The notes beneath the pieces are model-generated. The model saw only the letters and a program-made list of their open reading frames with translations. It did no database searches and had not been told where the DNA came from. Shown in pieces: positions 4,289 to 13,498 of a stretch of DNA of 33,940 nt. Each line of letters opens with the position of its first letter. Positions within the stretch are counted from its first letter, which is position 1. The position numbers and the translations under genes are program-made. This DNA comes from Bacteroidales bacterium (lineage in GTDB: Bacteria; Bacteroidota; Bacteroidia; Bacteroidales; UBA932): assembly GCA_017627955.1 (NCBI GenBank), contig JAGAFU010000002.1, positions 1 through 33,940 of the forward strand. Direction: 5' to 3'.

Positions 4289-5506
4289 CTATATCAGCCC
4301 CAGGTCCTTGGCTGTAGAGGTAAGCTCCACGGTGTTCGCGACATCAAATTTAACTAGGAGTTTCTTCCTGTACCACTTGATGGTTTCCGGGCTGAGCCCA
4401 AGACCTTCGGCGATTTGTGGCGTAGTGTAGCCCTTGGTCAGCAGGTCCAGGATTTCTTTTTCCCGCGGGGAAACCTGTGGAATGTCTTCACCTGAATGGG
4501 GGCGACGGGTTTCCTGGATAGTCTCTTCCAGGACGGCGGAGACTTCGGCCTGTTCCTTCCTCGAGCGACGCAATTTCTTTCCAATCAGCAGTACCGCAAG
4601 GAAAAGCAACAGAATGAGAATCGCACCTATGGCTATGAGTATCAGCTGTTTCCTTTGGGTAAGAAGCGCTGCCGACATGTACTCGTAATTCTCTTTGGTA
4701 AAGGTCAACTCCTCCTTGTCATGCGAAGAGAAATACTCGTCGGCCTTATGGAGATGCTTGAGCGCTTTCCCGCTTTTCCCTTGCTCCATATACACGCGTC
4801 CGAGGCCTTTCTGAGCCATTGCTACCATAAGGGAGTCTCCTTGAGCATATTCCATAGCTCTCTCATAAGCCTGAGAGGCTTTCCGTAGCTCGCCCTGTTC
4901 CACCCAGGTTTCCCCGATGTTATAGTAGAGGATGGCGTTGCTCTGGTTCCATCCATATTTGTCGAAAATGGCGCCGGCTTTCCCGTACCAGTCCATTGCC
5001 TGCGGGATGGAGTCCATCATATTGTAAAGGTTGCCGATGGCCCCGTAAAGAGCCGAACGGGTGTCATCGATGGCAAGCTCGGAATAACCTTCCGGAGCGG
5101 TGGGGGAAGTTGCCCCTTCCGCCATCCTTTCCACGGCAGAGAGCGCTTTCCTGTAATAAAAGAGCGAGCTGTCATATTTCTCGGAAGCCCAGAAGCACTG
5201 CCCAAGGTAGCGGAAGGCATCAGCGTTGGCTTCCTCCCAACCTCTCGGCTCAGAGACGGAGAGCGCCTTTCGGGCATAGAAAGCGCATTTCTCGCCGTTC
5301 AAGGCGCTGTAACCCAGCATGAGGTCCCGAAAGGCCCGGTTCAGGTCCACCAGTTCCCTGGTCGAAGCGAGGTCTATGGCATCAGGAGTCCATCTCGCGA
5401 CGACTCTTTCAAGGGAATCAAGGTTGTGTCCCCTATGGTCATTGTACGCTAAAACCCGTGCGCTTGACAAAGCTGTCAGCAGCAAAATGATACCTATTCT
5501 TCTCAT
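4289..5506 (-). CDS. TPR membrane protein with C-terminal LuxR-type HTH
   Basis: A membrane-anchored regulator of the Bacteroidota TPR-TM-LuxR type. The start was set at MRRIGIILLLTALSSARVLA (405 residues), a clean signal peptide right behind a -7 box; an ORF extension to 5680 crosses that promoter and is rejected. Residues 25-270 are periplasmic TPR-like helices (e.g. AILYYNIGETWVEQGELRKASQAYERAM, here only partly quoted as YYNIGETWVEQGELRKA). A transmembrane helix (about 288-309) and a basic linker follow. The C-terminal HTH (345-405) carries VSPREKEILDLLTKGYTTPQ and GLGLSPETIKWYRKKLL. No receiver domain is present. It is divergent from a small protein with a near-identical HTH at 5628, so mutual or shared control is likely. 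The ligand is unknown. Confidence 0.85.
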   Translation of the reverse strand: MRRIGIILLLTALSSARVLAYNDHRGHNLDSLERVVARWTPDAIDLASTRELVDLNRAFRDLMLGYSALNGEKCAFYARKALSVSEPRGWEEANADAFRYLGQCFWASEKYDSSLFYYRKALSAVERMAEGATSPTAPEGYSELAIDDTRSALYGAIGNLYNMMDSIPQAMDWYGKAGAIFDKYGWNQSNAILYYNIGETWVEQGELRKASQAYERAMEYAQGDSLMVAMAQKGLGRVYMEQGKSGKALKHLHKADEYFSSHDKEELTFTKENYEYMSAALLTQRKQLILIAIGAILILLLFLAVLLIGKKLRRSRKEQAEVSAVLEETIQETRRPHSGEDIPQVSPREKEILDLLTKGYTTPQIAEGLGLSPETIKWYRKKLLVKFDVANTVELTSTAKDLGLI

Positions 5507-5511
5507 AGAGA

Positions 5512-5519
5512 CAAAGATA
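5512..5519 (-). promoter_or_regulatory. -7 box TATCTTTG, near-leaderless
   Basis: A perfect TAnnTTTG element on the minus strand ends 5 nt before the ATG at 5506. The transcript would start at or next to the start codon. A -33 box is weak (GTTG at 5542-5545, 22-nt spacer). Confidence 0.6.
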
Positions 5520-5551
5520 GTAAATATAAATCGACCATATTCAACCCTTTG

Positions 5552-5584
5552 GGGTGGAGTTTGCCACCCGAAAGGGTGGTGTTT
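5552..5584. repeat. Direct repeat and hairpin in the divergent LuxR intergenic region
   Basis: GGGTGG-w-GTTT occurs at 5552-5562 and again at 5574-5584, exactly 22 bp apart (two helical turns). The inverted copy CCACCC (5564-5569) with GGGTGG (5574-5579) makes a 6-bp hairpin with a GAAA loop. It lies between two LuxR-HTH genes, so it is a candidate operator for either product. Confidence 0.5.
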
Positions 5585-5627
5585 AAGACAAATAAATAGC
5601 CGAAATTCGCGAAAACGAAAACCACAA

Positions 5628-5843
5628 ATGGACGAAATCACAGCAAATGACATTAAACTGACAAGAAGGGAGAAGTCCATCCTTCAGGAAGTTGCCATCG
5701 GCCGAACCACACCTCAGATCGCCCAAGACTTGGGGTTGAGCCCGGAGACCGTCAAGTGGTACAGGAAGCAGCTTCTTGTCAAATTCTCCGCGTCCACATC
5801 AGCGGAAATCGTGCGGAAAGCCTTTGAGATGAAAATCCTTTAA
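5628..5843 (+). CDS. Stand-alone LuxR-type HTH protein (71 residues)
   Basis: The gene product is nearly only a LuxR/GerE helix-turn-helix: LTRREKSILQEVAIGRTTPQ, then QDLGLSPETVKWYRKQLLVK. The start is the ATG at 5628; the longer frame from 5319 runs antisense to the TPR-LuxR gene and is rejected. It has no sensor, receiver or membrane segment. The HTH is strikingly close to the C-terminus of the divergent TPR-LuxR protein (shared GLSPET-KWYRK-LLVKF core), which points to duplication of one domain. The OmpA-like gene starts 11 nt downstream, so this is probably the first gene of that operon. It may act as an autonomous regulator or as a competitor for the membrane protein's operator. Confidence 0.75.
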   Translation: MDEITANDIKLTRREKSILQEVAIGRTTPQIAQDLGLSPETVKWYRKQLLVKFSASTSAEIVRKAFEMKIL

Positions 5844-5854
5844 TATGTTAGAAT

Positions 5855-6964
5855 ATGAAAAAGATTGCTTTGATCACCGCCGGTGTCATCCTTGCCGGTA
5901 ATCTTGCCTTCGCGCAGAAGAGTGAAACCCAGACCGCATACGCCAAGACCGACTTTGTCCCTGGTGACGAGATTTTCTTCGAGGACACCTTCGAGAACGA
6001 GAAACTTGGAGAATTCCCGCTGCGCTGGGACTTGCTGGACGGTTATGTGGAGACAGCGTCGGTGAAAGGCCGGAAAGTGCTGGCATTTACAGACAATGGC
6101 CTTGGGCAGGTGATGCCACTCATGAAGGATAAATGGAGCTGGCTGCCTGAGATATTTACCCTGGAATTCGACCTTTATGTCGCTCCCATGTCGGAAGACG
6201 GCGGCTCTGAACTTGGCATGGAGCTTAGGTTTGGAGACCGCGGCGCCTCCGACTATTACAATGCTTCCAGCTATGTTATTTTCCGCTATAGGGAAGACGG
6301 ATCTTCAGACATGGAATGGAGTCTTCGCAAACCCGGTTCGGATTCCGAAACTTACGGCAAAAAAGAACTGGGTCTCAACCCGGGTCTCGGTGGATATAAT
6401 GGAAAGGACAATCCGCTGAAGGCTGGCGAATGGAACCATTATGCCTTTTCCTTCAACAAGAGAGCCTTCAAGGGTTATATCAACGGTGTGCGCATCATCA
6501 ATGTGCCGGCCATGGAAGCCCCCGGATATCTCTATTTCAACAGTGCCGCACAATATAAATACAGCGGCATCAGCAATGTCCGTCTGGCGAAGGGGGCAGT
6601 TCCCCTTTATGACCGTCTGGCCTCCGACGGGAAGATCGTCACCTACGCCATCACCTTCGACACCGGAAAGGCTACCTTGAAGCCCGAATCCGCAGTCGAG
6701 ATAAGCCGCATCACTGAATTGATGAAGAAAGACGCCAGCCTCAAATTCGAGGTCCAGGGCCACTGCGACGCGACTGGCAGCGACGCCGTCAATGATCCGC
6801 TGAGCCAGAAGCGTGCGGAGGCAATCGTAGCTGCCCTTGTAAAGAACGGAATCGCGGCCGACCGTCTCACCGCCGTAGGCAAGGGATCACACAGCCCCAT
6901 CGCTGACAACGGCACCGAAGAAGGAAGGGCCAAGAACCGCCGGGTTGAGTTCGTGAAAAAATAG
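5855..6964 (+). CDS. LamG-like / OmpA-family envelope protein
   Basis: This 369-residue secreted protein has the signal peptide MKKIALITAGVILAGNLAFA. Residues about 30-245 form a beta-sandwich reminiscent of LamG/concanavalin-like domains (FEDTFENEKLGEFPLRWDLL, YVIFRYREDGS, EWNHYAFSFNKRAFKGYING). Residues about 260-369 are an OmpA C-terminal peptidoglycan-binding domain (ITFDTGKATLKPESAVEI, EVQGHCDATGSDAVN, LSQKRAEAIVAALV, GRAKNRRVEF). It should sit in the periplasm or outer membrane, anchored to peptidoglycan, with the sandwich displaying a ligand-binding face. It follows the small LuxR-HTH gene by 11 nt and ends 19 nt before a convergent lipoprotein gene. The family role (envelope anchoring) is known; the ligand is not. 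Confidence 0.88.
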   Translation: MKKIALITAGVILAGNLAFAQKSETQTAYAKTDFVPGDEIFFEDTFENEKLGEFPLRWDLLDGYVETASVKGRKVLAFTDNGLGQVMPLMKDKWSWLPEIFTLEFDLYVAPMSEDGGSELGMELRFGDRGASDYYNASSYVIFRYREDGSSDMEWSLRKPGSDSETYGKKELGLNPGLGGYNGKDNPLKAGEWNHYAFSFNKRAFKGYINGVRIINVPAMEAPGYLYFNSAAQYKYSGISNVRLAKGAVPLYDRLASDGKIVTYAITFDTGKATLKPESAVEISRITELMKKDASLKFEVQGHCDATGSDAVNDPLSQKRAEAIVAALVKNGIAADRLTAVGKGSHSPIADNGTEEGRAKNRRVEFVKK

Positions 6965-7686: not shown

Positions 7687-8919
7687 CTATCGGATCGCGG
7701 CTTCGAGGAACGCGGCGCGTTCTTTGTCCCATAGGGGCTCCTTCCACATGGCGTGGTCGCAGGTCGGAACGCATAGGAAGCGCTTCTTGCGGGTCCCCAA
7801 GTTGTTGTAAATGGCGAAATTGGTGTGTGGCGGGCAGGTCGGGTCCTGCAGGCCGAAACTCATGTACACCGGACACTTTACCTTCGGTGCGAAATTCTTG
7901 ATGTCGAAATATCTGAGCATCTGGAGGACCTTCTCTCTCGGCAGGCCGGAGGCGTCAGCTTCCCCGAAGACTTCATGCACCGGCCACCAGACGATGCGGG
8001 CATAGTCTCTGTAATCTCCCATAAACGGTACGGACGGAGCGATGGCTTTGATTCGTTTGTCTATCGCCGCCGCCAGGAACGTGAACGCTCCGCCCTGGCT
8101 CTCACCCCATGCCACCATCCTGTCCGGGTCTGCCTTGTCCAGAGCGGCGACGAAATCCACCGCCCGCTTCACGTCACAAAAAGCGCCCCTGTAATAGAAG
8201 CTCTCCTTGTCTTCGATTCCCCGGTCGATCCATCGGTCCTGCCCGGCTTTGAATATGCCCTGGTCGCGAACACTCACAAGGAACTGAATCTGCTCCGGAG
8301 ATGACGAAGGATCAATATAATACGGTTCCGCCCCATAGCCCATGAACATAATCTGCGCAGGATACTTGCCGGGGGCGTTCGGGACGGAGAGGATGCCGCC
8401 GGAAACAGCCCCGCCCCAAGAGGCGTACCGCACCTCATAGCATGTCCTCAACTCGTTGGAGTAGGAGGGGATTACCTTGAATTCGGGAGACAATTGAACC
8501 ATGTCAAGCTCCCTGAAAGTCTTTTTCCAGAATTTGTCGAAATCTTTCGGAGGGTCTGGAGGACTCACTACGTCGTCCGGGCGCACACCGATGTTCCATC
8601 TCAGGCTGTCCCGGAGACGCGCCTGGTAAAAACCCGGAGCCAGAGACCCAAGGTCCACTCTAATCATGCTGTCAGCCGCCACAGTGACCTGCGTGTTCAG
8701 GACCGTGTCCTGAACCGGATCCATCAGGGATAGATCCTTCACCAGCACGAAGGAAGCGTTACCAGGGGGCGCCTCAACATGGGTGACAAGCGTGTAGGGA
8801 CCTTCATCAAGGAATAGCCAACCCAAGTCTGGGTTTGAGTTCCCCGTCACCTTAACCGCTCCAGGCGGTATGAAGGAGGCGAATACTATGAGAAACCCGA
8901 GGAGGAGCGATCTTCTCAT
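7687..8919 (-). CDS. Acetyl xylan esterase / cephalosporin-C deacetylase family (CE7)
   Basis: A 410-residue secreted alpha/beta hydrolase of the AXE1 family (PF05448), which removes acetyl groups from xylo-oligosaccharides and related sugars. After a hydrophobic leader, residues 25-112 form an extra N-terminal beta domain. The CE7 core begins near PPDPPKDFDKFWKKTF (about 120-135). The triad is visible: Ser274 in GESQGG, Asp359 in FGLQDPTCPP and His389 in TCDHAMW. The RGAFCDVKRAVDF helix (about 244-256) is typical. Its start codon overlaps the stop of the DUF362 gene by 4 bases (8916-8919), so the two are translationally coupled. The substrate is inferred from the family only. Confidence 0.9.
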   Translation of the reverse strand: MRRSLLLGFLIVFASFIPPGAVKVTGNSNPDLGWLFLDEGPYTLVTHVEAPPGNASFVLVKDLSLMDPVQDTVLNTQVTVAADSMIRVDLGSLAPGFYQARLRDSLRWNIGVRPDDVVSPPDPPKDFDKFWKKTFRELDMVQLSPEFKVIPSYSNELRTCYEVRYASWGGAVSGGILSVPNAPGKYPAQIMFMGYGAEPYYIDPSSSPEQIQFLVSVRDQGIFKAGQDRWIDRGIEDKESFYYRGAFCDVKRAVDFVAALDKADPDRMVAWGESQGGAFTFLAAAIDKRIKAIAPSVPFMGDYRDYARIVWWPVHEVFGEADASGLPREKVLQMLRYFDIKNFAPKVKCPVYMSFGLQDPTCPPHTNFAIYNNLGTRKKRFLCVPTCDHAMWKEPLWDKERAAFLEAAIR

Positions 8920-9914
8920 AAATTGACTATGTGGTATTTCCTGCCGCCAAGGCCGATGCTCTCCGCATATTCAAGAATATGCAGTCCGTGCTGGCGGTTG
9001 ATCCTCTGCTGGAGAGGGGTGGCGGTGTCGCCTTCGGTGTCTTTGTGGTTGAATACCAAGTCTATGCATGCCTGGTCAAGAGCGACGGGGTCAGTCGAGG
9101 CCAGGATGCCGATGTCTTTCATGCGGGGCTTGTCGGGGTTGCCGTCGCAATCACAGTCCACGGACATGTTGTTCATCACATTGATGTAAATGATATTTTT
9201 CCCGTCCTTCTTGAAATAATCATGAACAGCCTGCGCCGCCGCTGCCATCGACTCGAGGAAACCGTCCTGATCGTCGTCAATCCATTTGGTGGTGCTGCGT
9301 CCTGCCGAGTGGATGTAAAGCTTCCCGGACGACGAGGCTACCCCGATACTCTGGTTCTTCAGAACGCCTCCGAAACCTCCCATCGCGTGGCCTTTGAAAT
9401 GGGCTAGGTTAATCATGAAATCGTAGTTCTGGATGTGGCTGCCTACAATGTCGTGTTGGATGTGGGATTTGTCCTTGACCGGAATCTGGATTTCTCCTTC
9501 CTCATCCATGATGTCCACATGGGCGACAGACTCGAAACCTCTCTCCACTATGGCTTTGCGGTGTGCCGCCGTGTTTGCCCTGCTGCCACCATAAGCGGTG
9601 TTGCACTCCACAAGGGTTCCGTTCACCTCATGGACAAGGTCGGAGATCAGCTCGGGACGGAGATGATTGCTCTTTGACGATTCGCCGGTCGAAATCTTGA
9701 CGGCGACTCTGCCTTGAGGCTTGACACCGAGGGCTTTATAGATCTCTACAAGTCCTTTTGAGCTTATGTCCGAAGTGAAGTACACGGTCGCTCCATCCTT
9801 AGAACTGTCGAATCCGGTGCTTGATTGGGGAACATTCTTGGAGCCGGCGCAAGAGGAAATCAAGATCGCCGCGGAAACAAGGGAAAATAAAAAAGTTCTG
9901 CGTCTCATTGTCAT
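8916..9914 (-). CDS. DUF362 domain lipoprotein
   Basis: A 332-residue protein with a twin-arginine-like start (MRRRTFLFSLVSAAILISSC) that also ends in a lipobox, so it is probably a membrane-anchored lipoprotein, perhaps Tat-exported. The core fits DUF362 (PF04015): VAVKISTGESSKSNHLRPEL, GTLVECNTAYGGSR, the central FMINLAHFKGHAMGGFGG and the C-terminal GILASTDPVALDQACIDLV. The 4Fe-4S ferredoxin extension found on some members is absent. The DCDCDGNP stretch could bind a metal such as Ca2+. It is the first gene of a two-gene unit with the CE7 esterase. The biochemical role of DUF362 is unknown. Confidence 0.88.
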   Translation of the reverse strand: MTMRRRTFLFSLVSAAILISSCAGSKNVPQSSTGFDSSKDGATVYFTSDISSKGLVEIYKALGVKPQGRVAVKISTGESSKSNHLRPELISDLVHEVNGTLVECNTAYGGSRANTAAHRKAIVERGFESVAHVDIMDEEGEIQIPVKDKSHIQHDIVGSHIQNYDFMINLAHFKGHAMGGFGGVLKNQSIGVASSSGKLYIHSAGRSTTKWIDDDQDGFLESMAAAAQAVHDYFKKDGKNIIYINVMNNMSVDCDCDGNPDKPRMKDIGILASTDPVALDQACIDLVFNHKDTEGDTATPLQQRINRQHGLHILEYAESIGLGGRKYHIVNL

Positions 9915-9933
9915 TGACTGGTTTTTCTTGACG

Positions 9934-9941
9934 CGAATTTA
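9934..9941 (-). promoter_or_regulatory. -7-like box TAAATTCG for the DUF362 gene
   Basis: On the minus strand TAAATTCG lies 19 nt before the ATG at 9914. It is the same variant used on the other strand at 10012-10019. The -33 region is only T-rich. Confidence 0.45.
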
Positions 9942-9985
9942 GTCAAAAATCTTGATGGATAAATTGTTGATAAAAAATAAACTTA

Positions 9986-10019
9986 TCGCTTTAATTTAAG
10001 CCAAAAGCGAGTAAATTCG
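9986..10019 (+). promoter_or_regulatory. Promoter with inverted repeat before the phosphate-transporter fusion
   Basis: TAAATTCG (10012-10019) ends 4 nt before the ATG at 10024, giving a leaderless or nearly leaderless mRNA. Immediately upstream, TCGCTTT (9986-9992) and AAAGCGA (10004-10010) form a perfect 7-bp inverted repeat covering the -33 region. It is a candidate operator, possibly for the gene's own winged-helix domain. Confidence 0.5.
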
Positions 10020-10023
10020 CGTT

Positions 10024-11973
10024 ATGATAATGACTATATTCAAGCTGCTCGGCTCTATCGCCCTCCTGATGTACGGAATGAAGGTGATGAGCGAGGCCCT
10101 GCAGAAGATGGCCGGCCCCGGCCTGCGCCACATTCTAGGGGCGATGACAACCAATCGTTTCACCGGAGTACTCACTGGAATGCTCGTCTGTGTGGCTGTC
10201 CAATCTTCCGCCGCGACGACAGTCATGACCGTCTCTTTTGTCAACGCCGCTCTCCTGACTCTAGCCCAGGCCATCTCAGTCATTATGGGAGCGAATATCG
10301 GAACGACTCTCTCGGCTTGGATAATGTCGGCCGGATTCTCATTTAACATCACGAATCTCGTATGGCCGGTATTCCTTATCGCTGTGATCCTGATCAATTC
10401 GAGGAAGCACCGTTATCTGGGAGACTTCCTCTTCGGACTTTCATTCCTTTTCTTCGCCCTCGGCACCTTGAACGTGACCGGCAGGGAAATGGACCTGGCG
10501 CATAATGAGGGTGTGGTCAACTTCTTCTCATCCTTTGATTCAGGCAGTTATCTCACCATCCTCCTCTTCCTGGTCATAGGTGGCATACTCACTGTGATCG
10601 CCCAGTCGTCGGCCGCTTTGATGGCCATAACCATGGTCCTTTGCACCACCGGGGTCCTTACCATCTATCAAGGCATCGCCCTGGTCATGGGGGAGAATAT
10701 CGGTACGACCGTGACCGCCAATGTGGCGGCTCTCTCGGCCAACTCACAGGCTCGCAGGGCGGCTCTGGCCCACTTGCTGTTCAATGTGTTCGGAGTCCTT
10801 TGGGTGCTGTGCGTGTTCTATCCTTTCGTCAATACGGCTTGTTCCATAGTCGGGGTCGACCCTCATGCGGAGTCCCAGAGCGCCGCCAGATTGTCTTTCG
10901 TGTTGGCCACCTTCCACACGATGTTCAATGTGACCAACACCGCTATCTTGATCTGGTTCATTCCCCAGATCGAGAAGATAGTGACCTACCTGATTCCGCA
11001 GAAGACACAGGACGAGGAATTCCGTCTCCAGTACATCCAGACCGGTATCATGCGTACACCTGAGATCTCTGTCCTGCAGGCCCAGAAAGAGACCAGCCTG
11101 TTCGCGGACAGGATGCGCCAGATGTTCGCCCTTGTCCGGGATTTGTATGGCGAGACCGACGAGGCTGCCTTTGAGAAAAAGATCGTCAGGGTGCGAGAGA
11201 TGGAGCAAATGTCCGATCGCCTTGAGAGCGAGATAGGCAGTTACCTGGCCCAGGTCTCCAGTGCCCACCTCAGCGACGAGACAAAGAGGAAGATCCGCGC
11301 GATGCTCCGTACCGTCAGCGAGCTTGAGAGTATCGGCGACAGCTGTCTTAACCTTTCCCGTATGATAGACAGGCGCAATAAGGAGAAGGAGCATTTCCTC
11401 CCCGAGCAGGAAGCGGGCATCTCGGCGATGTTCGATCTTCTTGAAAAAGCCTTTGACAATATGGTGGAAGTCCTTGAGGGTGAGGGAGATCCCGATGTCT
11501 CATGGACCGTTGAGAACGACATCGACTCAATGCGTGACAAACTCCGCTCCCAGAACACCATCGACGTGGATTCCGGCAAATATTCCTTCGCTCTTGGAAC
11601 CGTGTTCGTGGATATTGTCAGGGAGTGCGAGAAGTGCGGTGACTATGTGATCAACGCTGTGGAGGCTAAGATGGGAAAAAGGGAAGACGCCGACAATTTT
11701 GGAGCCTTGGCGATTGATCACCAGCGCAAGACAGCTACTTTGTACGGAAAGCCTATTGACTTTACCAAAACAGAGTTCGAGCTCCTCAGCCTGCTGGTCT
11801 CAAATCCAGGGCGTGTTTTCTCGAAGGAAGAGCTTCTGGAATCCATCTGGCCCAAGGATGAGCCTGCGGGTATAAAAGATGTGGACGGCAGCATCAAGGA
11901 CATCCGGGCCAAACTGGGCGACGTTGCCGGCCATATCACTTTGAAACCTGGGTTCGGTTATTATTTCGAATAA
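10024..11973 (+). CDS. Na+/phosphate symporter fused to PhoU repeats and an OmpR/PhoB-type DNA-binding domain
   Basis: One uninterrupted 649-residue frame with three modules. Residues 1-about 320 are a Na/Pi-cotransporter membrane domain (PF02690 type) with its two inverted repeats: QSSAATT (60-66) with GANIGTT, and QSSAALM (194-200) with GENIGTT. Residues about 340-550 are PhoU-like helices (FADRMRQMFALVRDLYG, LESIGDSCLNLSRMID, IVRECEKCGDYVINAV). Residues about 558-649 are a winged helix of the OmpR/PhoB class: DFTKTEFELLSLLVSNPGRV, FSKEELLESIWP, VDGSIKDIRAKLG and the terminal wing LKPGFGYYFE. The usual symporter of this group ends after PhoU, at about 550-570 residues. The wing domain must be cytoplasmic, so the protein could report phosphate flux directly to DNA. 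DUF4301 starts 19 nt downstream. The transport function follows from family; the regulatory role is inference. Confidence 0.92.
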   Translation: MIMTIFKLLGSIALLMYGMKVMSEALQKMAGPGLRHILGAMTTNRFTGVLTGMLVCVAVQSSAATTVMTVSFVNAALLTLAQAISVIMGANIGTTLSAWIMSAGFSFNITNLVWPVFLIAVILINSRKHRYLGDFLFGLSFLFFALGTLNVTGREMDLAHNEGVVNFFSSFDSGSYLTILLFLVIGGILTVIAQSSAALMAITMVLCTTGVLTIYQGIALVMGENIGTTVTANVAALSANSQARRAALAHLLFNVFGVLWVLCVFYPFVNTACSIVGVDPHAESQSAARLSFVLATFHTMFNVTNTAILIWFIPQIEKIVTYLIPQKTQDEEFRLQYIQTGIMRTPEISVLQAQKETSLFADRMRQMFALVRDLYGETDEAAFEKKIVRVREMEQMSDRLESEIGSYLAQVSSAHLSDETKRKIRAMLRTVSELESIGDSCLNLSRMIDRRNKEKEHFLPEQEAGISAMFDLLEKAFDNMVEVLEGEGDPDVSWTVENDIDSMRDKLRSQNTIDVDSGKYSFALGTVFVDIVRECEKCGDYVINAVEAKMGKREDADNFGALAIDHQRKTATLYGKPIDFTKTEFELLSLLVSNPGRVFSKEELLESIWPKDEPAGIKDVDGSIKDIRAKLGDVAGHITLKPGFGYYFE

Positions 11974-11992
11974 AACTTTAAACCACATAATA

Positions 11993-13498
11993 ATGTTCAC
12001 TAAAGAAGACATCGCCCAGATCAAGGGGCGTGGGGCCGACCTCCATAAAGTCGAGGAGCAGGTCGAGCGTTTCAAGAAGGGCTTCCCTTGGATGAAGATA
12101 GTAGCGCCGGCTACTCCAGGCAATGGAATTAAGGTCCTTTCTGAAGAAGATGCCCGGGAGTCGGTTGATTATTACCGGCGGGCCTCCTTCGAGGGTAGCT
12201 GCAAATTCGTGCCCGCGTCAGGAGCCGCCTCAAGGATGTTCAAGGACATGTTTTCAGGGCTTGAGAAACTCAAGGCGGGTGAGGATCTTCCCGCTGACGC
12301 TCCGGGAGCGAAACTTGCCGCGAGGATAAAGGATTTCGCTTTCTACGACGAGGCTGTTTTCGGAGAACCGGATGACAGCAGGGCGTACAGGCTCAAGGCG
12401 CTGACCAAACTTTTGGGGGATGAGGGCCTCGCTTATGGTTCCAAACCCAAAGGAGTCCTGAAGTTCCACCGCTATCCTTCTGAGGTCAGGACGGCTATCG
12501 CCGAGCACCTTGTTGAGGCGCAGGAATACATGCGTGTTACTGATCCATTTACTGACGAGGATTCCTGCAAACTTGTCGTCACAATCTCACCGGAGCACAG
12601 GGAACTTTTCGAAAAAGCTGTCGCTGAGGTGGTTCCGGAATATGAGAAACGCTATGGCGTCCATTATGACATCACGTTCACCTATCAGGACAAAGCCACC
12701 GACACGATAGCTGTCGATATGGACGGGAATCCGTTCAGGACCTCAGAAGGTGAGCTTTTGTTCCGTCCCGCCGGGCATGGAGCCTTGATTCACAACCTGA
12801 ACAAGGTGGAAGAAGAGTTGGTCTCGATCAAGAATATCGACAATGTCTCCCATGAGAAATACTTGGGCGAGACTTCATTCTATAAGAAAGTCCTGATGGG
12901 CGAGGCGCTCAAATTGCGAGACTGGATAACCCTTTACATCAGGAGGCTGAACGCCAATCATTCTGAAGAGATTTGCGATGAGATTGAGGATTTCCTCAGC
13001 AGTGTCCTTTGTGTCAAGGTTCCCGAGGCCAGCAACTTGGAAGAAAGGGTGGCATTGCTGCGCTCGAAGCTGAACCGTCCGATCCGCGTCTGCGGAATGG
13101 TACGTAACGAAGGTGAGCCCGGTGGTGGCCCGTACATCATCGAAGGTAAGGACGGCTGTACATCGCTCCAGATTCTGGAGAGCGTTCAGATCAACAAAGA
13201 TGATCCGGAAGCCCTCGCGGCTATGTCAGGGGCAACCCACTTCAATCCGGTCGACATCATCTGCCTGCTTAGGGATTGTAGGGGAAATAAGTTCGATCTC
13301 CTTTCCTATGTTGACCAGGAGGCCGGTTTCATCAGCCAGAAGAGTTATCAGGGTAGGGAACTCAAGGCACTCGAGCTGCCCGGACTATGGAATGGGGCGA
13401 TGAGTGACTGGAACACCCTTTTCGTGGAGGTTCCTATCCAGACATTCAATCCTGTTAAAGTGGTCCTTGACCTGCTGCGTCCGGCGCATCAGGGCTAG
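11993..13498 (+). CDS. DUF4301 family protein
   Basis: A 501-residue cytoplasmic protein that I recognise as DUF4301, a family found mainly in Bacteroidota. It begins MFTKEDIAQIKGRGADLHKV. An early motif CKFVPASGAASRMFKDM (about residue 67) resembles the nucleotide-binding loop of sugar-nucleotidyltransferases. PKGVLKFHRYPSEVRTAIAE and LLFRPAGHGALIHNLN follow, and GEPGGGPYIIEGKDG lies near residue 370. Nucleotide- or sugar-phosphate-directed chemistry is plausible but unproven. It lies 19 nt behind the phosphate-symporter fusion with no terminator between, so it is probably co-transcribed and phosphate-regulated. It ends 4 nt before the convergent DUF554 gene. Confidence 0.88.
   Translation: MFTKEDIAQIKGRGADLHKVEEQVERFKKGFPWMKIVAPATPGNGIKVLSEEDARESVDYYRRASFEGSCKFVPASGAASRMFKDMFSGLEKLKAGEDLPADAPGAKLAARIKDFAFYDEAVFGEPDDSRAYRLKALTKLLGDEGLAYGSKPKGVLKFHRYPSEVRTAIAEHLVEAQEYMRVTDPFTDEDSCKLVVTISPEHRELFEKAVAEVVPEYEKRYGVHYDITFTYQDKATDTIAVDMDGNPFRTSEGELLFRPAGHGALIHNLNKVEEELVSIKNIDNVSHEKYLGETSFYKKVLMGEALKLRDWITLYIRRLNANHSEEICDEIEDFLSSVLCVKVPEASNLEERVALLRSKLNRPIRVCGMVRNEGEPGGGPYIIEGKDGCTSLQILESVQINKDDPEALAAMSGATHFNPVDIICLLRDCRGNKFDLLSYVDQEAGFISQKSYQGRELKALELPGLWNGAMSDWNTLFVEVPIQTFNPVKVVLDLLRPAHQG

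Follow-up and report, generated by a model that had tools for sequence, protein, structure and literature searches.

Architecture of the fused gene and its neighbourhood

The window (the whole stretch of DNA analyzed, 33,940 bases) contained a gene joining a Na/Pi symporter, PhoU and a PhoB-type winged helix at positions 10024 to 11973 of the forward strand, as displayed by its frame and profile matches. The gene formed a single ATG-to-stop frame of 649 codons with zero internal stops. The NptA/SLC34-like symporter part (residues 1-330; 10024 to 11013) was supported by Pfam, NCBIfam, alignment and solved structures. Na_Pi_cotrans matched in two stretches (E 7e-53, 178.7 bits against a Pfam cut-off of 29.1), the NptA-type NCBIfam model TIGR00704 scored above its cut-off (212.1 against 210.1 bits), solved SLC34 structures matched this part, and its Q60-S61-S62 and Q194-S195-S196 motifs were invariant across 53 aligned proteins. 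A PhoU-like region, identified through Pfam and NCBIfam, covered residues 364-546 (11113 to 11661), with the Pfam PhoU domain itself at residues 362-446 (E 1e-11); the full PhoU model TIGR02135 gave 41.1 bits, under its cut-off of 130.25.

The OmpR/PhoB-type winged helix occupied residues 558-649 (11695 to 11970) and was supported by Pfam, NCBIfam and solved-structure matches, both to PhoB and to further OmpR-family domains. Trans_reg_C (PF00486) was complete at residues 575-648 (profile 1-77 of 77, 62.4 bits, Pfam cut-off 26.2). A preliminary description of this DNA had read the symporter, PhoU and a complete OmpR/PhoB winged helix at residues 558-649 as one polypeptide; the Pfam and NCBIfam search confirmed this, and the frame was unbroken between PhoU and the winged helix, also in relatives. 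The top NCBIfam model for the tail was that of Bacteroidales PhoB (NF053854), of which positions 128-225 alone aligned, the receiver being absent, and the score of 79.2 bits stayed far below the 270 bits that define a PhoB response regulator. The recognition helix, located by alignment at residues 618-632 (11875 to 11919), read KDVDGSIKDIRAKLG in the window, while that of unchanged clade-B relatives read RTVDVNITRIRKKIG. Hydrophobic segments were not found past residue 340, which places PhoU and the winged helix on the same membrane side; judging from the behaviour of such domains elsewhere, this side would be the cytoplasm.

The fused gene was flanked by a divergent DUF362 gene (8916 to 9914, reverse strand; Pfam) and, 19 bp downstream, by a DUF4301 gene on its own strand (11993 to 13498; Pfam and neighbourhood comparison), with which it is probably co-transcribed. 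Only within the window's subclade did DUF4301 adjoin the fused gene (besides the window, in L003, L032-L038 and L041); it was not seen in the available flanks of more distant relatives, and could possibly be a partner of the fused-gene circuit. Further upstream (4289-6964), a TPR-LuxR protein, a small LuxR-type regulator and an OmpA-like protein were encoded together, a set that recurred in L032 and L033.

Distribution and origin of the fusion

A census of the architecture across relatives showed that the fusion recurs. Among the best 80 loci, the winged helix was present in 51 and absent in 29, the latter stopping soon after PhoU. The 51 fused loci were frames of more than 600 amino acids, all with a winged-helix match (the contig of L039 ends inside the domain). 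In whole-genome samples, the fusion was found in 10 of 149 genomes of the family, in at least 2 of 393 genomes of the order and, among 395 genomes of the phylum, in the window's own genome only, at most the three best candidates per genome being scored in the latter two samples. The second match within the order (G580, locus L205) came from another family group and displayed a nearly unchanged PhoB-type helix. Most record titles of the fused and unfused loci referred to rumen and other ruminant-gut assemblies (RUG presumably standing for rumen). The window's genome also encoded a second Npt-PhoU protein without winged helix (G000:C17:7274-8743, L002), 31% identical to the fused one. Some Npt homologues (G055:C84:5254-7023 and similar ones in G038, G081, G115 and G136) harbored an insertion of at least about 30 residues near residue 288, with the frame remaining open.

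In a tree of winged helices, the fused domains sat within the PhoB regulators. A topology with two separate fusions, in which the PhoB of L066 was sister to the domains of the window's clade (support 88), was also considered, but a single clade of fused winged helices was not rejected (p 0.75) and scored higher. The linker had equal length in nearly all printed rows of both large clades (it was two residues longer in L037 and shorter in the outlier L102), and several unfused relatives retained linker residues and then stopped. In a phylogeny of the transporter part, the state of the domain (present or absent) switched 11 times, at least 8 of them via well-supported branches. Behind the unfused genes, a search for winged-helix remnants returned only the intact phoB of L066 and three chance-level matches. 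According to these alignments and trees, the winged helix descends from Bacteroidales PhoB, and we read its history as one fusion event with repeated losses thereafter.

In L066, an unfused relative, npt, phoB and phoR stood in one tight row, which shows a functional neighbourhood between these genes, although L066 need not be the donor of the fusion. Many near-identical units flanked this row (L066 1-2700 and 8060-9540), with repeated peptides in several frames.

Phosphate regulators in genomes with and without the fusion

In the window's genome (G000, a draft of 60 contigs, 92.58% complete), the fusion was the sole Trans_reg_C domain found. Searches of this genome gave no PhoB, no PhoR-like kinase at 1e-15 and no PstB at 1e-70, and the pair of PhoR-like kinase and PhoB that makes up a two-component phosphate system was not found in its 92.58% complete sequence, which encoded two other HisKA proteins. 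Stand-alone PhoU was also sought there and not found, the two matches at 1e-7 both being Npt proteins. Of the preliminary proposal of a kinase-free and receiver-free regulator tethered to a symporter, this part was supported, with no PhoBR pair found in the genome; the operator suggested for it was not (see below). More generally, the fusion was the only Trans_reg_C domain found in 15 of the 17 fused-type genomes examined, G177 and G180 harboring a full regulator as well, and PstB (E ≤ 1e-70) was detected in none of the 17.

PhoB was less frequent where the fusion occurred. At 1e-60 it was found in 107 of all 149 genomes of the family and in none of the 10 fused ones (Fisher p 1e-6, kinship ignored), and a PhoB-like regulator was found at the same threshold in 3 of 34 genomes with the fusion against 11 of 30 without (64 genomes, p 0.014). 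Despite these counts, the idea that the fusion replaced a lost PhoB was not retained: tree-independent pairs, from which rows L061 and L111 were left out because their genomes held both copy types, gave no support for a link between fusion and PhoB loss, and a causal link is therefore not claimed. Neither fusion nor PhoB was found in 19 of the 64 genomes, which together with the repeated loss of the domain (at least 8 state changes) indicates that it is dispensable.

Promoter of the fused gene and candidate Pho box

A tandem direct repeat (GATAAAT-N4-GATAAAA, 11-bp period) was located at positions 9958 to 9975 of the forward strand, a position equivalent to that of the Pho box of relatives, and represents a candidate operator. 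A Bacteroidetes-type -7 element (TAAATTCG; 10012 to 10019, forward strand), for which we take the consensus to be TAnnTTTG, followed 36 bp beyond the end of the second half-site. The pattern, which was derived from the site itself, had no second match in the 33,940 bases at two mismatches (0.03 expected). The preliminary description had proposed a 7-bp inverted repeat at 9986-10010 as the operator. This repeat exists, but inverted repeats of at least 7 bp arose in 55% of order-1 shuffles, and by eye it was unconserved in relatives; it is unlikely to serve as the operator, for which the direct repeat at 9958-9975 is the better candidate. A longer inverted repeat of 11 bp (9931-9941 and 10012-10022), a length reached in 1% of shuffles, lay between the divergent genes and looks like two facing -7 elements.

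Fused genes of clade B were preceded by an almost invariant GTTAAAATTCTGTTACAATTG, made of two 7-bp direct repeats with an 11-bp period, whose entropy was 0.22 bit against 1.13 in the flanks (11 clade-B promoters, selected for having the box). In some of the PhoB-bearing relatives, the tandem repeat GTTAMAATNNTGTTACAA, with the same period, was located ahead of phoB. It also preceded most fused genes whose recognition helix is PhoB-like, with a nearly constant distance to the -7 box; its occurrence in front of both kinds of gene is new here. A like box stood before the pst cluster and a PiT gene of PhoB-bearing genomes. Sites of the candidate Bacteroidales Pho box GTTACAATNNTGTTACAA ahead of phoB, pst, PiT and npt genes included L109 1490, L110 5933, phoB promoters among L119-L153, L190 5770 and L194 3365. 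In L194, L196, L197, L145 and L146, a PiT-type phosphate transporter, identified by eye, adjoined the PhoB/PhoR genes.

Of the 43 phoB promoters examined, 19 had box scores of at least 12, a level reached by 3 of 258 control windows; the other 24 phoB promoters, including that of L066, were without a box at this threshold, and the npt promoter of L066 had none either. Among 81 non-redundant npt promoters (51 fused, 30 unfused), scores of at least 10 were reached by 16 of the 22 fused genes whose helix is PhoB-like, 6 of the 29 whose helix is changed, none of 19 unfused genes without PhoB and 2 of 11 with PhoB, leaving 6 of the 22 and 9 of the 11 without a box. The two unfused cases were L110, whose genome has PhoB, and its near relative L109, for which PhoB was assumed from kinship to L110. 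Box score followed helix integrity (Spearman 0.58 over 51, kinship ignored). The first matrix, which served for these counts, for the pst and PiT sites and for the genome scan described below, was built with 14 npt promoter sites (9 of clade B, 3 of clade A2, L109 and L110) that were themselves counted, so that these figures are partly circular for npt promoters, though not for phoB. A matrix from clade B only gave 12.7 for L109 and 8.4 for L110. With a matrix from phoB, pst and PiT sites only, themselves originally found with the npt-derived matrix, 18 of the 51 fused promoters and 2 of the 30 unfused ones exceeded the 99% null. Independently of any matrix, 24 of the 51 fused promoters had a 7-bp repeat (at least 6 of 7 matching) at spacing 11, as did 2 of the 30 unfused ones, while spacings of 8-10 and 12-14 gave 4-9 of the 51 fused ones.

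Between the end of the second half-site and the -7 box, 15 of the 16 box-bearing clade-B promoters had 36 bp and one had 35. Four clade-A2 promoters had 35-37 bp and nine from the window's subclade 36-38 bp, the window itself having 36. This search covered genes that had been selected for their box, at start-to-start distances between 30 and 60 bp. Over 21 phoB, pst and PiT sites taken in their own orientation, the spacing was 36 in nine (eight of them near-identical promoters), 46-47 in three, 39 in one and 25 in one, seven having no -7 box in range. Spacing between Pho box and -7 element was often 36, and a few cases deviated in either direction by roughly one 11-bp step.

The site of the window kept the Pho-box geometry and spacing with a shifted sequence, and its score of 12.9 with the phoB/pst/PiT matrix fell just below the 99% null of 13.8. 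Its half-sites were both GATAAA, not GTTAAA. Across nine promoters of its subclade, the second half-site was always GATAAA and the first variable. L036 and L040 of this subclade, and the remaining clade-A2 genes, displayed no clear box. The joint change of helix and box could possibly reflect a shift in specificity, although as a single event it could also be explained by coincidence.

In the clade-B genome G051 (1.82 Mb scanned of about 2.1 Mb), one very strong box was found (27.3), located in the promoter of the fused gene itself. Another thirteen sites were weaker, with scores of at most 18.8, against six in one shuffled control whose best was 14.9; six of the thirteen exceeded this best control value, and a few weaker targets are therefore possible.

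Proposed function and alternative explanations

Architecture, recurrence, descent, selection and promoter box can be read directly from the sequences. From these, the fused protein is predicted, with a probability of roughly 60%, to be a membrane-tethered, self-regulating phosphate symporter and one-component regulator whose DNA-reading domain was acquired from PhoB, and some uncultured rumen bacteria probably switch the gene of this protein through the protein itself, without the usual kinase-regulator pair. A Na/Pi symporter with PhoU would have gained the DNA-binding domain of PhoB in an ancestor of a mostly ruminant-gut group of Bacteroidales, many present members of which appear to be without PhoB, PhoR and Pst. 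The transporter/PhoU part would report phosphate supply; low phosphate, sensed via transport or PhoU, would release the winged helix, which would then bind the Pho-box-type tandem repeat some 36 bp ahead of the -7 element in the protein's own promoter. The bound domain would most likely activate its own gene under phosphate scarcity, a sign suggested by the precedent of PhoB and by the box lying upstream. For relatives whose PhoB recognition helix is unchanged, this would be the same box as ahead of phoB. As both helix and box changed in the window's subclade, its copy most likely still autoregulates with altered specificity. A fuller version, in which an entire phosphate-starvation system collapsed into one self-regulating gene, the transporter combining the roles of sensor, PhoU switch and transcription factor, its own promoter being the main or only target, and operator and helix of the window's lineage having shifted together, is plausible at somewhat below even odds.

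The winged helix is under purifying selection. Among 26 pairs compared, 25 gave a value for its dN/dS (Nei-Gojobori), which never exceeded 0.21 and was 0.03-0.06 for the five pairs from the window's quartet; in most pairs it was above that of the symporter, still far from neutral. Conservation of the DNA contacts, for which positions and numbering of E. coli PhoB are presumed, differed between lineages. Contact columns of PhoB regulators were much more conserved than others, with 0.52 bit against 1.45, a value matched by a fraction of 0.000 among 5000 random column sets. For clade B the figures were 0.89 and, elsewhere in the domain, 1.06 (fraction 0.23), and in the window's subclade the order was reversed (0.85 against 0.50), contacts being more variable. 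The window displayed R201 to D, T194 to D and K204 to A, contacts kept in many clade-B relatives, and its recognition helix thus lacked these PhoB-type contact residues, a trait outside the Pfam definition of the domain. At position 201, 50 of 55 regulator rows (some duplicates) had Arg, 12 of 59 fused rows had an acidic residue (Asp or Glu), and the window's subclade had Asp, Glu or His. The low dN/dS, the contact-column pattern and the change at position 201 together indicate that the fold was held while PhoB-style DNA reading changed in the window's lineage. Given these changes and several losses of the domain in relatives, DNA binding is likely for the window's copy but less certain.

The most serious alternative, a minority option to be kept in mind, is that the winged helix of the window's lineage no longer reads DNA and was kept as an intramolecular or protein-protein module, e.g., gating transport through PhoU. 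Lost or acidic contacts, the more variable contact columns, a net charge of -2 for the domain, strong purifying selection despite the lost contacts, and the dropping of the domain by members of other fused lineages would all fit such a role; it fits less well with the tandem repeat at Pho-box spacing in nine genes of the subclade, with the two GATAAA half-sites of the window, and with positions 193, 200, 203, 205 and 218 still basic and Y223 still Tyr in the subclade. Another possibility is that the repeat belongs to promoters in general (a UP element) or is bound by a different factor, the fused domain not reading it, as its AT-richness and near-fixed distance to the -7 element might suggest. 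This appears improbable given like sequences before many phoB genes and one pst cluster, the repeat in only two of 30 unfused npt promoters (L110 and L109), and the lack of any other Trans_reg_C protein found in 15 of 17 fused-type genomes. A decaying leftover, functionless in every lineage, would account for the repeated losses and the linker remnants of unfused relatives, but hardly for the low dN/dS within the window's quartet and in 25 of 26 pairs or for box scores that track helix integrity (kinship ignored), and is very unlikely. Although the window belongs to a 60-contig draft, a chimeric contig or mis-joined frame can be dismissed, as neither frameshift nor chimeric assembly explains an unbroken frame in 51 of the best 80 loci from many separately named assemblies.

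Relation to known systems and significance

The self-regulating symporter proposed here shares traits with several known systems. ToxR, CadC and TcpP likewise tie a PF00486-type winged helix to the inner membrane without phosphorelay. Their winged helix is N-terminal and is combined with a single membrane helix and a periplasmic sensor; the fused protein differs from this arrangement, its winged helix being C-terminal behind a polytopic symporter that would act as sensor. CbrA, a transporter domain fused to a histidine kinase, also uses a transporter as input of a signalling protein, but signals via kinase and regulator, whereas here the transporter is joined directly to the DNA-binding domain. 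NptA-type symporters with C-terminal PhoU (TIGR00704, NF037997) are alike in the transporter and PhoU part; unfused relatives stop after PhoU, while the DNA-binding domain of PhoB follows here.

The winged helix is of the same descent as PhoB of the Bacteroidales PhoB/PhoR system (B. fragilis BF1576/BF1575), in which PhoB is reported to bind the pstC promoter and to control phosphate genes in B. fragilis (PMC3547664). Where the recognition helix is unchanged, fused genes have a candidate operator similar to the box that stands ahead of phoB in PhoB-bearing relatives. In contrast to that system, the fusion has neither receiver nor kinase, and one very strong target was found in the one genome scanned, not a large regulon.

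In the largely open-access literature searched, no description of the fusion architecture or of a Bacteroidales Pho box was found. The text of a 2026 survey of the PhoU/NptA family contained no word starting with "fused", "winged" or "DNA-binding", and excluded Na/Pi-cotransporter proteins from its PhoU trees (PMC13170248). In a two-hybrid study in S. aureus, contact between NptA and PhoR was considered and not found (PMC11705898). The fusion and the npt-phoB-phoR row of L066 tie NptA-PhoU directly to PhoB output, a link testable with one gene and one promoter, and a candidate Pho box for Bacteroidales is gained. If the proposed reading is right, a two-component pathway would have been reduced in these bacteria to a DNA-reading transporter, whose relatives display losses and a possible switch in specificity.
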